DNA of 64,000 bases from Lentibacillus jeotgali. GTDB lineage: Bacteria; Bacillota; Bacilli; Bacillales; Amphibacillaceae. Location: NCBI RefSeq assembly GCF_000224785.1, contig NZ_AGAV01000015.1:186001-250000 (forward strand), given 5' to 3'. The position numbers and the translations under genes were made by a program. The notes below the pieces were generated by a model. It was not told the DNA's origin. It saw only the letters and a list, made by a program, of their open reading frames with translations, and made no database searches. Positions 12,022 through 33,201 of this stretch are shown in pieces. Each line of letters starts with the position of its first letter. The first letter of the stretch is position 1.

Positions 12022-12363
12022 TCGATAAGTCAAATTATCAGTTTTCTCATCACATGCTACTCTCCTAAACTAATCTCTATTATTCTAGCGCTTGAGATGT
12101 TGTTGTTGATTCCTGACTGGGGATATAAATAGTTTTTATTTTACCGAGATCAGACTAATCTGTCAAATTGCGTTAAGGATTTTAGTGACTTAGGAAAAAC
12201 TATTTAAATTCAATGAAGGTAGCGGGTGGGGTTAAAACAAGTGATCTGTAAATATGTAATATGGTCTATTTAAATAACCGCTACGTCTGGTAAAATGGAG
12301 AATGTACAATATGGCTATTCTGGGTGGTGGCTCACTCCCTTTTAAGAAAGGGGGTGATGCGAT

Positions 12364-12444
12364 ATAACAGTATTTGAGACGCTGGTTCTGATGATTTCGT
12401 TTGGAACGCTGGTCACGATGATACTGTCTGACATGAAAAAATAA
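12364..12444 (+). CDS. Holin-like type I toxin, start codon reads ATA
   Basis: A 26-residue hydrophobic peptide with the Hol_Tox pattern TVFETLVLMISFGTLVTMI and a SDMKK tail. AAAGGGGGTG lies correctly upstream, but the codon in the start position is ATA where related loci have ATG. The downstream leader (12445-12558), with its CCACCC...GGGTGATTATTTGTC segment and final GC-rich hairpin, is the arrangement I associate with these Bacillaceae toxin loci. There an antisense RNA on the other strand is thought to silence the toxin. Either translation starts at ATA at a low rate or the toxin is dead. Confidence 0.6.
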   Translation: MTVFETLVLMISFGTLVTMILSDMKK

Positions 12445-12528
12445 CCACCCTATGAGCCTGGCAAGCATGTAGGGTGATTATTTGTCACGAAGCATGTGAG
12501 CCGCCCCTTTGAAGGGCTATTGTACACG

Positions 12529-12558
12529 GCCGCCAGTGTTCAGCACTGGCGGTTTTTT
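12529..12558 (+). terminator. Terminator of the toxin transcript
   Basis: CCGCCAGTG pairs with CACTGGCGG across a short loop, followed by TTTTTT. It is the conserved 3' end of the holin-like toxin locus. Confidence 0.85.
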
Positions 12559-30193: not shown

Positions 30194-30952
30194 TTAATTT
30201 TTGAATGTCTCAAGCAATACCTTTCGTGCTGATCGGCTGACCGGCAGTGTTGTATGGTTATCATCCTTCAGCGTCAGATTGTATGCTCCGTTGAACCATG
30301 GGGTAATCTCCCGAACATAATTGAGGTTAACCAGATAGCTCCGGTGGGTCCGGAAAAAGAACAGCCCCTGCAGTTTATCTTCCAGTTCCTGCAAAGTCAT
30401 GCGGCTTTCGATCACTTCATCATGTGTATAGATTTCCAGCATACGGTTGGATGGGACGGCATAGTAAATTGAATCCGGCGACAGCACGACCAAGCGTTCA
30501 CCGTCATCTATAAGCAGCTTTTCGGCAGCCGAATCGTTTTGCACCTTAGCTCGCCTGTTCCGTTTCATGCCGATCTGTGCCATTTGCTTGCGGATCCGCC
30601 GCATGGTTTTTTGAAAACGGGCATCATCATAGGGCTTGAGCAAATAATCAACCGCTTCAATTTCAAACGCGTCCATCGCGTATTGGTCATAGGCTGTTGT
30701 AAAAATAAACAATGGCGGGTGAAGGTATTCCAGTTCTATTATCTGCTTTATAGCGTCCACTCCGGTCATGCCGGGCATTTCTACGTCGAGAAAAATAACG
30801 TCAGGTTCATGTTCAACATACAAGTCTAACAATTGCTTGCCCGTTTCAGCACTGGGACAGAGTATGACATTCGGCTCCTTTTCCAATAAATAAATCATGT
30901 CCTCCCGTGCCAGCTGTTCATCTTCGGCAATCATGGCGTGAATTGATCGCAT
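30194..30952 (-). CDS. LytTR-family response regulator
   Basis: A 252-residue cytoplasmic regulator. The receiver domain has E10/D11 and the phosphorylation site D56 in VIFLDVEMPG. Its final part is DYLLKPYDDARF. A LytTR DNA-binding domain occupies about 145-250 (EKLLIDDGERLVVLSPDSIYY, then FFRTHRSYLVNLNYVREI). GGAGAG precedes the ATG by 7. The cognate LytS-type kinase lies upstream in the same direction but is separated by 500 bases containing a repeat element. In related species such pairs sense pyruvate or acetate and induce a transporter. Confidence 0.9.
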   Translation of the reverse strand: MRSIHAMIAEDEQLAREDMIYLLEKEPNVILCPSAETGKQLLDLYVEHEPDVIFLDVEMPGMTGVDAIKQIIELEYLHPPLFIFTTAYDQYAMDAFEIEAVDYLLKPYDDARFQKTMRRIRKQMAQIGMKRNRRAKVQNDSAAEKLLIDDGERLVVLSPDSIYYAVPSNRMLEIYTHDEVIESRMTLQELEDKLQGLFFFRTHRSYLVNLNYVREITPWFNGAYNLTLKDDNHTTLPVSRSARKVLLETFKN

Positions 30953-31012
30953 AACGAAACTCTCCTTCTTTAAGGCTGTATTTAAAAAGGTATTGTTTCT
31001 AATACAAAATCC

Positions 31013-31404
31013 ATAAACTGCGACGTAGTGACAGGGTTGATTTCCGCTTCAGGCAGTTGCTTTCCGCGGGCAACGCTTCAGCTTCCTCGGAAGCAAAACC
31101 CGCTTCCTGCGGGATCTTCAGCTGTTGCTTTCCCGCAGGAGTCAACTGCCCTCCGCTCCAATCAACACCATATTAGCGCAGTGTACATCAGAAGCTGGAT
31201 TGTTTACGATATGTGGCACATCACATGAAATATAGTGAACAAAACTAAGCGGAGGAAATACACGGAGACTCCTGCGGGAGCAGAGGCATAGGTGAGACCC
31301 CACAGTGCGAAGCACGAGGAGGCTCACCAGCCGCCCGCGGAAAGCGAAGTGTATTTCCGAAGCGGTATTATCGCACACAAATTTTTCACTATGTCGCAGT
31401 TTAT
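31013..31404. mobile_element. 392-bp element with 19-bp terminal inverted repeats and two internal hairpins
   Basis: The ends are ATAAACTGCGACGTAGTGA (31013-31031) and its inverted copy at 31386-31404 with one mismatch. Inside are two related units of about 120 bp in opposite orientation, at 31044-31163 and 31246-31365. Both share TTTCCGCGGGC, a CCTCCTCG or TTCCTCGG block, CCCGCAGGAGTC and a CCTCCGCT end. Their closing stems differ but each pairs with itself (GGCAGTTG/CAACTGCC and GGAAATACAC/GTGTATTTCC). No protein is encoded. It resembles a MITE or a structured-RNA repeat. No target duplication was recognised. It separates the LytS kinase from its regulator. Confidence 0.75.
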
Positions 31405-31452
31405 CTCAAATTAAAAGGTTAAGAGCTGCGGAGTTTGTCTGTATAGCCTTTT

Positions 31453-33201
31453 TTAATGATCACTATATGGAATCGTAAAACAGACTTCACTTCCGCGTTC
31501 AGGCAAATTGCGTATATGCAGGCGTGCCGAATCGCCGATCAGGCTGATCAAACGCTGGTTCACGTTATAAAGACCGGCACCCCCGTTTTCGCTGTCTGAC
31601 AATGATGGCATTCCGGCTTCCCTCAAAAGCCTTTCGGGAAATCCATCTCCGTTATCACGGACGGCGATATGAATGCTGTCTTCGTTTTCTTCCATGATAA
31701 CGTTCACTTCACCCCCGCTGGTTACATTTTTCAAGCCGTGCTTGATGCTGTTTTCAACAAGCGGCTGGATCGTTGAAGGCGGTATGTCCACTCGTGTCAT
31801 TACCTCAGGCTCTGAAACGTGAATGGTCAACTGGCTGGAAAAACGGGCCTGAATGATTTCGACGTATGATTTAACGTGTTGATATTCTTTTTCCAGCCGG
31901 ACGAGTGATGCTGATACAAGGCCGATATTGAAGCGCATATAGTGTGCCAGGTTAACGGTGATATGCCGCGCTTTTTCCGGATCTTTACGAAAAAGGGCCG
32001 CAATCATGTGAAGTGTATTAAATAGAAAATGCGGATTAATCTGAGCCTGAAGGTTTCGCAGTTCCGCATCACGAATATGTTTTTTCAATTCTTCTGTTGC
32101 GATAGTATCGAGCTGATTGGTAATCAATTGTCCGAGTCCTTTGGCGAGAACAAGCTCCATCGGCCGGATATGCTGTGTTTTTTCGAAGTAGAATTTAATC
32201 AGTCCTGCAGATTCCTGGGTATCGATGATCGGGATGAAAATTGCCGCTTCAAACGGACAATTCTTATAGCGGCACTGGATCTCCGAACGCGAATAAGCGA
32301 TTTGCATCTGCCTGGTTTCAAGTGCCTCATAGGATAAGGGCGTCACGATCTGATCGCCTTCCTGATGATGATCACCGCCCATCCCTTTGTGCGCTAGAAC
32401 TTCGTGTTCATTGGTGACAGCAACTGCAGCCAATTCCAGACGCTCATAAAGTAAATCAGCAATCTCTGCCGCCATCTCTTTTGGCGAATGGTGTTTTCTT
32501 AAAAAAGGGAGAGCCTCTTCAGCAATGGCAAGCGCCTGTCCGGTGGCCTGCGCTGCTCTAGTTTCCTGCTCCCGTAGGACAATACCGATCATAGCTGTGA
32601 AAATCGCGATGGAGATGCTGTTTGATAAGACCAGTGGCAGTCCGATCGTGTTGACGATTGTAATCATTTCCTCTGAGTTTGGTTCGGCAATCAGCAGCAT
32701 ATGCATCTGCAGGACCGGAGGGAAAACACCGATAAAGAGCGCCTTCATAGGTGATATAACCCGCTCATTGGAAAAAAATCGAGCCGTCCACCCTGCCAGG
32801 AGTCCGGTAATCGGGTTGACCAGGCTGTTCGCTATAAATCCTATGCCTCCAAGGTAAAAAAGATGTGCCCCCGCAATCACACCAGCACCAAGCCCAACGA
32901 TAGGACCTCCCAGTAAACCGGCAATGACAATTGCAACCAGACTTGAACCAGTTACCATCTGATCATCACTGACAGGCATCAGTACGAGGTCGCGTGTGGC
33001 GACTGTATCTCCTTCAATTACAATTCCTGTAATTGTACCTGCTATGCCAAACAGACCAAAGACACAGGCATGGACCAGCAGCATTCCTTTACTGAACTCA
33101 CGGTCCAGGAGTGATCTGAACCCGCGGGTGCGTGTCAGGACAAAGGCGATGACGAGCAATAGCCCGAGACGTTCGAATAAAATCAGCGTCAAATAGTTCA
33201 T
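31453..33201 (-). CDS. LytS-type sensor histidine kinase (5TM-LYT, GAF)
   Basis: A 582-residue membrane kinase. Residues 1-210 hold the 5TM-LYT sensor with NPxxG loops such as GGIGFIANSLVNPITGLLAG. About 230-365 is a GAF-like domain with a CRYKNCP cysteine pair. The phosphoacceptor is H391 in LQAQINPHFLFNTL, followed by an ATPase domain with PPSTIQPLVENSIKHG and DNGDGFP. The ATG overlaps the stop of the upstream symporter (ATGA), tying sensor to transporter. Homologues (LytS, BtsS, YpdA) sense pyruvate or related acids. The CxxxxC pair in the GAF domain could add redox or metal sensing. Confidence 0.92.
   Translation of the reverse strand: MNYLTLILFERLGLLLVIAFVLTRTRGFRSLLDREFSKGMLLVHACVFGLFGIAGTITGIVIEGDTVATRDLVLMPVSDDQMVTGSSLVAIVIAGLLGGPIVGLGAGVIAGAHLFYLGGIGFIANSLVNPITGLLAGWTARFFSNERVISPMKALFIGVFPPVLQMHMLLIAEPNSEEMITIVNTIGLPLVLSNSISIAIFTAMIGIVLREQETRAAQATGQALAIAEEALPFLRKHHSPKEMAAEIADLLYERLELAAVAVTNEHEVLAHKGMGGDHHQEGDQIVTPLSYEALETRQMQIAYSRSEIQCRYKNCPFEAAIFIPIIDTQESAGLIKFYFEKTQHIRPMELVLAKGLGQLITNQLDTIATEELKKHIRDAELRNLQAQINPHFLFNTLHMIAALFRKDPEKARHITVNLAHYMRFNIGLVSASLVRLEKEYQHVKSYVEIIQARFSSQLTIHVSEPEVMTRVDIPPSTIQPLVENSIKHGLKNVTSGGEVNVIMEENEDSIHIAVRDNGDGFPERLLREAGMPSLSDSENGGAGLYNVNQRLISLIGDSARLHIRNLPERGSEVCFTIPYSDH

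Follow-up and report, generated by a model that had tools for sequence, protein, structure and literature searches.

An IS1595-type MITE carrying two inverted hairpin modules between lytS and lytR of Lentibacillus jeotgali

The closest described counterparts of the element analysed here are found among insertion sequences and MITEs of the IS1595 family and among folded or palindromic intergenic repeats. For the former, the part of PMC12561309 drawn on here describes A/T-rich 8-bp duplications for ISApl4, a member of the IS1595 family. As for the latter, the BOX elements of Streptococcus pneumoniae are presented in the relevant portion of PMC3049150 as modular MITE-like repeats with extensive folds, transcribed in some cases, whose terminal repeats resemble ISSpn2, a likeness proposed as the basis of their mobilisation. 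The excerpt of PMC2267715 used here names bcr1 (Bacillus cereus group) and Bhal-1 (B. halodurans) as structured intergenic repeats of Bacillus, and REP/BIME, ERIC and NEMIS appear in extracts of PMC3733652 and PMC1590033 as intergenic palindromes or MITEs, some of them transcribed with their neighbours.

We analysed an element separating a lytS-type sensor kinase gene from a lytR-type regulator gene, both on the minus strand, in a window of 64,000 nucleotides (the whole stretch of DNA studied; Table 1). The outer element belongs to a known family of MITEs and to an ordinary class. It holds two opposite copies of a hairpin of about 110 nt with four helices. This module represents a genuine hairpin family with strong covariation, found widely across the order and with a putative role. 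Our joint reading, to which we give a probability of roughly three in four, is that of a 475-bp non-autonomous IS1595-family MITE with two inverted hairpin modules, in which arms would be partly copied from each other, modules exchanged between copies and, as a weaker component, a role played as RNA.

The element and its site

Table 1. Features of the window at and around the element (positions are those of the window)
Feature	Position	Strand	Basis
Whole element, IS1595-type MITE, 475 bp, between lytS and lytR	30974..31448		End alignment in own genome, limits and flanks, empty sites in congeners
Target duplication, left 8-bp copy, TTCTTTAA	30966..30973		Matches right copy 7/8
Target duplication, right copy, TTTTTTAA, contains the lytS stop codon	31449..31456
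Outer left end, P type, GGCTGTATTTAAAAAGGTATTG...	30974..31012		12/19 core positions; core as in IS1595-type elements
Outer right end, Q type, inward reading GGCTATACAGACAAACTCCG..., decayed	31405..31448		10/19 core positions only
Inner 19-bp repeat, left arm, ATAAACTGCGACGTAGTGA, subterminal repeat of the genus	31013..31031	+
Inner 19-bp repeat, right arm	31386..31404	-
Hairpin unit A, core GACTCCTGCGGGA ... CCGCGGAAAGC, stem GGCAGTTG/CAACTGCC	31043..31159	-	Covariance model match, E 1.3e-12
Hairpin unit B, stem GGAAATACAC/GTGTATTTCC	31251..31361	+	Covariance model match, E 4.2e-28
lytR-type response regulator, LytTR domain, downstream gene	30194..30952	-	Pfam PF04397, PF00072
lytS-type sensor kinase, 5TMR-LYT and His_kinase domains, upstream gene	31453..33201	-	Pfam PF07694, PF06580

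The original prediction, made from the sequence of the window, described a mobile inverted-repeat element running from 31013 to 31404. Its mobile nature is borne out by IS1595-type ends, target duplications and empty sites. Its limits had to be moved: conservation runs about 40-45 bp beyond both positions, and the empty-site comparison together with the end alignment places the insertion limits about 40 bp outside them. A target duplication, which the prediction had proposed to look for, flanks the revised interval with seven of eight positions alike. The predicted 19-bp inverted repeat with one mismatch is present as an inner repeat, as are the blocks shared by two oppositely oriented units and their stems, at 31052-31059/31143-31150 in unit A and 31254-31263/31349-31358 in unit B. 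No ORF of at least 80 aa overlaps 30974-31448. Promoter and terminator scans over the element stayed at chance level, the former with one promoter found and 1.0 expected. Elsewhere in the window, positions 12305-12552 (+) match the Rfam family BsrG, listed as an sRNA (79 bits, cut-off 55); BsrG is a type I toxin-antitoxin RNA.

BLAST with the 392 bases between the outermost positions of the inner repeats found 48 places in the own genome, mostly partial, and matched 31 of the 40 genomes of a relatives set that included it. A phage search with this stretch gave no match, and a plasmid search gave six records with partial matches only. When one mismatch is allowed, the first 12 bases of the inner repeat, ATAAACTGCGAC (followed by R), occur at 60 own-genome sites, and the reversed pattern used as a control occurs at 8. 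The 12 bases are found exactly in all 12 genomes of the genus, albeit at a single site each in G003 and G005, maybe by chance; one site in G004 lacks the flanks seen at other sites. In the alignment of the 60 sites, most are preceded by an outer end resembling either GGCTGTTTTCTAAAAGGTTGTTG...ACAAAATCC or GGCTCTTTTCGTAAANTTTGTTGC...GCAGTTGAT.

In the own genome, 25 elements have both inner ends 100-1000 bp apart with at most two mismatches in each. The IS1595-type core reached at least 13 of 19 positions in 29 of their 50 outer ends, compared with 0.6% of background stretches. The ends of the window element are decayed (12/19 and 10/19, where the background mean for the best of 41 is 9.4) and were placed by alignment with other own-genome ends. 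An automatic duplication test on the 25 elements was weak, with 3 reaching at least 6/8 (shuffled mean 0.6, the count being reached in 36 of 2000 shuffles), so most own-genome copies are either old or misplaced in their limits. Eight assembly contigs terminate no more than about 150 bases from a MITE inner end, and the own-genome copy counts are therefore likely lower bounds.

The element's end type is GGCTNTTTTCNTAAANNTTGTTG. Named genomes scanned for the end GGCTCTTTTCGTAAANNTTGTTGC yielded at least 120 stretches, and 80 loci were analysed; the loci listed belong to Bacillus, Rossellomorea, Metabacillus, Mesobacillus, Sutcliffiella, Peribacillus, Paenibacillus and others. A mate end lay within 1.5 kb at 60 of the 80. 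These mated loci carry an 8-bp A/T-rich target duplication, exact in 34 and at least 6/8 in 55, whereas 1000 shuffles of the mates gave a mean of 1.02 exact duplications and a maximum of 5. One locus, L185, contains a broken gene with an IS1/IS1595-type zinc domain. With a piece of this gene as query, 37 of 150 genomes of the order matched, and a transposase lay between such ends in 4 of 30 loci (L298, 1625 bp; L302, 1533 bp; L305, 1612 bp; L306, 1662 bp). In a second set, from the family, 24 of 80 genomes matched and these ends were present in 2 of 20 loci (L328, 1880 bp; L329, 1466 bp). The target duplication is 8/8 in all of these full-length elements except L305, where it is 7/8; one end of L306 is poor, with six mismatches. 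Three further transposase loci have variant ends with duplications of 7/8 or 8/8, and four more (L331, L332, L334 and L341) have a shifted end, GGCTNNGTTA..., with exact 8-bp duplications. Of L298-L306, the nine loci whose transposases are closest, five yielded no pair of ends.

Four of the six full-length elements (L302, L305, L328 and L329) have an open transposase frame; in the other two, L298 and L306, it is broken. The L302 protein is an IS1595-family transposase (NF033547, E 2.7e-63; PF12762, E 4e-18), as is that of L305, and both profiles score above cut-off for both proteins. A terminal core is common to L298, L302, L305, L328, L329 and the own-genome family ends. The window's own assembly contains no match to PF12762 or to the L302 transposase, and the element should be immobile there unless a transposase comes from outside. 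None of the 20 loci of the second set held a full-length element with the inner repeat ATAAACTGCGAC. Four IS1595-type elements (L185, L222, L298 and L306) bear passenger genes, with the domains NTP_transf_6, zf_CopZ, DUF5680 and DUF6882.

The GGCTCTT ends had at first suggested the ISL3 family as parent. ISL3 elements have GGCTCTT ends and make 8-bp duplications, and in congeners such sites are also present close to genes for ISL3-type transposases. However, a search with PF01610 gave no match in the own genome, which thus lacks an ISL3 transposase, and in the 12 of 23 congener ISL3 loci that were inspected no GGCT[CG]TT site continues as the 23-bp end, which frames IS1595-type elements. An ISL3-family MITE is accordingly a very improbable identity for the outer element.

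The insertion site was compared across the genus. The joined flanks match 11 of 12 genomes, the own included, with no match in G006. Six congeners have the two flank matches separated by 35-41 bp, and a seventh, G003, has a single BLAST match across the junction, so that the site is empty in these species. It is occupied in G011, G008 and G002, by inserts of about 261, 706 and 141 bp, respectively. Their left ends resemble the window's left end; at the right end, a locus-specific AGCTGC run is common to G011, G008 and the window and absent from the G002 remnant. The contents differ: by reading, the G011 insert is a fused A/B unit (model E 0.07) and the G008 insert holds units with nested inserts (one model match, E 2e-11), while the G002 remnant has no model match. 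Because the site is common to several species of the genus, we infer that the occupied sites descend from one old insertion in an ancestor of several species, and that the contents of this insertion were subsequently deleted or replaced by others. Another site shared by the own genome (L068) and G008 (L158) has flanks of 85-88% identity and an interior mostly without match. Occupied in four species with differing contents and empty in seven, the lytS-lytR site makes cassette exchange directly testable.

A hairpin module widespread in the order

Over the window, the covariance model recovered exactly two units at E up to 1, 31251-31361 (+) and 31159-31043 (-), unit B being one of the 28 sequences from which the model was built. 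The whole stretch 31013-31404 folds with z = -10.45, none of 100 shuffles being as good; each unit, folded on each strand as single-stranded DNA, gives z from -3.9 to -4.2, with 0 or 1 of 200 shuffles as good. Profile searching of the collected loci yielded 147 distinct units. The module core, GACTCCTGCGGGA ... GAGACCCCGCAG ... GAGGAGGCTCACC ... CCGCGGAAAGC, is conserved, while the outer stem is variable. Model matches were obtained in 113 of 150 genomes of the order, the own included, and in 65 of 84 genera, often with at least 20 scored copies (25 candidates scored per genome, E up to 0.001). The phylum search covered 199 genomes with the own (E up to 0.0001; 19 candidates scored); besides the own genome, a single one of the 198 others matched.

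No Rfam family matched the element at its gathering score. Among sub-threshold results, two matches at E up to 1 came from five module loci. One of them, possibly due to chance, places tsr24, a small RNA of Staphylococcus aureus, over unit A (locus L001, 1544-1631, minus strand) with 22 bits against a cut-off of 50 (E 0.24). In a literature search by the module's conserved strings, no title among the matches listed concerned the module. The hairpin family could not be placed in any known family and is new to the searches made, BOX being compared by description only.

Copies vary in composition. Six own-genome copies (L014, L017, L023, L029, L066 and L068) have CCCTAAGGTGCGCG, or a sequence close to it, in place of the block CCCGCGGAAAGCG. 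Three MITE copies (L070, L071 and L075) hold arrays of CTCGCGCGAAATTCAGAG-like repeats instead of, or beside, hairpin modules. Two loci, L066 and L351 (the latter in G011), contain chimeric units in which type A arms are joined to a type B core or arms, as if exchanged at shared blocks. By eye, seven loci of genome G169 (L415, L416, L418 and L420-L423) seem to have a further outer palindrome beyond the stem, differing between copies.

The modules are found in several contexts. Among 50 own-genome units with enough flank, 27 lie in an IS1595-type MITE, 8 beside one such end, 12 beside one or two TGGGACA-type ends and 3 beside neither; the corresponding figures for 92 units of other genomes are 35, 29, 5 and 23, the loci of both counts having been partly chosen by MITE ends. 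A further 40 stretches from five other genomes were scored as having IS1595-type ends in no case, TGGGACA-type ends in 11 and neither in 29. The module is therefore not simply part of the IS1595-type MITE. A second kind of element, with ends like GAGGCTGGGACA... and ...TGTCCCAGCCTC, holds modules at L015, L016, L019 and L020 and at the G119/G093 loci L404-L412, L432 and L433; by eye, it has no evident target duplication.

IS1272 has TGGGACA-type ends. Given the TGGGACA-bounded elements, we considered a possible link of the module to 'inverted-repeat-replacing' insertion of the IS1272 type, a mode treated in the section of PMC5678879 consulted. These contexts, bounded by TGGGACA/TGTCCC or by neither kind of end (29 of the 40 stretches), would also suit modules that are independent transposons, each variant stem being the terminal repeat of a transposase of its own. 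Yet the stems vary even among copies in one genome, and an unsystematic look brought to light neither a target duplication nor a transposase linked to the module, which makes such independence improbable.

With respect to neighbouring genes, units are sense to the 5' neighbour in 74 of 112 cases, with 48 sense against 28 antisense units in co-directional gaps, and lie in 26 convergent against 10 divergent gaps; these orientation counts rest on crude ORF calling and on related loci.

How complementary arms are kept

The original prediction held that the stems covary between copies, and this claim stands. When own arms were paired, 72% of 95 distinct stem pairs scored at least 8, compared with 10% when arms were swapped between unlike units (an anchor-based parser took 127 of the 147 units and dropped 20). 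We also built an alignment without reference to structure, of the window unit and 27 units hand-picked from 72 for clean length and diversity, a selection that leans towards well-formed copies. On it, 25 of the 31 pairs of the four-helix structure have changed on both sides. The covariation score is 0.453, against 0.130 for shuffled alignments (0 of 500 reach the observed score) and at most 0.119 for slid ones, the structure having been drawn from one of the aligned sequences, which favours it over the slid controls. A MAFFT alignment of 72 diverse units gave a useless fold in RNAalifold (energy -2.8).

G-T and A-C pairs were counted on the GACTCC strand. With fixed anchors and a rule giving both kinds of pair equal treatment, which kept 74 of 98 outer stems and 29 of 32 inner arms, distinct G-T cases outnumber A-C cases by 15 to 2 in the outer stem and by 12 to 1 in the inner stem. 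A larger set (133 of 176 units kept) gave 19 against 6 contexts (p = 0.015, ignoring relatedness), and its subsets gave 4 against 0, 3 against 1, 8 against 1 and, for the named loci, 5 against 4. The outer stem of the unfitted 28-sequence alignment, with 18 G-T cells against 13 A-C cells, shows a weaker asymmetry than the counts by anchors. Two model-fitted alignments carry no weight here, since counts on them are biased towards the modelled strand.

Wobble is nonetheless rare: of 1839 stem cells, 1684 are Watson-Crick and 23 are G-T. Stems one pair apart (75 of 153 stems compared, at least 8 of 10 Watson-Crick pairs being required, which favours paired states) show 28 full Watson-Crick swaps, 17 of them transversions, and 24 one-sided changes, comprising 8 G-T, 0 A-C and 16 others. 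In genome G169, stems of 9-20 bp (mean 16) differ considerably from copy to copy and still pair. Double changes by transversion, which pass through no wobble intermediate, together with the rarity of wobble, form a pattern that copying of one arm from the other during replication would also be expected to give. The claim that the folded form is what is kept thus holds in part: the G-T excess, which favours a constraint on one strand, speaks for it, and the mostly transversional double changes and rare wobble against it.

These data bear on two simpler explanations. If the module were a structured RNA, as a small RNA or a 3'-UTR element, maintained by ordinary selection through sequential compensatory mutation and merely carried by the MITE, all four helices should covary, as they do, and the excess of G-T over A-C on one strand, including the 8 against 0 among one-sided differences, would follow, as would the preference for sense orientation and for convergent gaps. 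For an RNA helix, however, 23 wobble cells in 1839 is very few, and double changes are mostly transversions. Moreover, the co-directional bias is modest and subject to the limits of ORF calling and locus relatedness already given, the two window units point in opposite ways, and promoters over the element do not exceed chance. We regard selection on RNA as a sole cause as possible, if doubtful. Conversely, the stems could owe their complementarity purely to palindrome correction by template switching, in neutral parasitic DNA with no selected fold. The nearly pure Watson-Crick stems, the 17 of 28 double changes that are transversional and the divergent but still pairing G169 stems all suit this explanation. 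Nevertheless, drift alone would hardly keep a core and a multi-helix plan recognisable in 65 of 84 genera, and a symmetric process would not be expected to produce an excess of G-T over A-C; we consider pure correction unlikely.

Our joint reading draws on both processes. The transversion swaps, the rare G-T pairs and the G169 stems that differ yet pair lead us to infer that arms were partly copied from each other; at the level of DNA, the arms may perhaps have been rewritten together, as well as selected as a structure. The excess of G-T over A-C points to some selection acting on a single strand as RNA and speaks against the view that a symmetric double-stranded cruciform is all that is selected. 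At the window locus, an IS1595-family MITE would have inserted once between the lytS stop codon and the lytR start, in an ancestor of several species. Modules would then have been exchanged between copies by recombination at shared blocks; one site carries different module contents in different species, while the module core is conserved and its four helices covary. Complementarity would be kept partly by template switching within the palindrome, both arms changing in one event. A weaker, putative component is that the GACTCC...GGAAAGC strand, where transcribed, would fold as RNA and be kept as a co-transcribed hairpin; the window copy of such a hairpin would lie within the lytS-lytR message.

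A general account can be offered tentatively, at somewhat less than even odds: hairpin cassettes uncatalogued in Rfam would ride, throughout the order, in unrelated MITE classes and outside them, their arms being rewritten jointly in single events by copying, so that the textbook RNA-like covariation would be largely made by DNA processes and the core kept as a one-strand structure. Should both arms indeed change in a single step, statistics of covariation give too high an estimate of selection on the RNA folds of mobile palindromes, and the module offers a natural test of how compensatory change arises.

Relation to described repeats

The closest likeness is to IS1595-family insertion sequences and MITEs, which have the same ends, the same 8-bp A/T-rich duplications and, in full-length relatives, the transposase. 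The window element differs from that family in having no transposase, a paired hairpin cargo and the extra subterminal repeat ATAAACTGCGAC seen in the genus. With BOX, as portrayed in the part of its description used here, it shares the plan of modular MITE-like repeats with extensive folds. By description only, BOX differs in host and in module plan; the modules here are a single hairpin in inverted copies, with stems that change freely, and they also occur outside the MITE. Among the repeats of Bacillus, bcr1 is specific to the B. cereus group according to the title of its paper as cited in PMC2267715, and Bhal-1, known here from the description in the same partial source and not by sequence, is 74 bp long. 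REP/BIME, ERIC and NEMIS, so far as the extracts cited above portray them, are palindromic intergenic repeats like the module. In contrast to them, the module described here is longer, has four helices, is widespread in one order and, at this locus, sits on an IS1595-type element.
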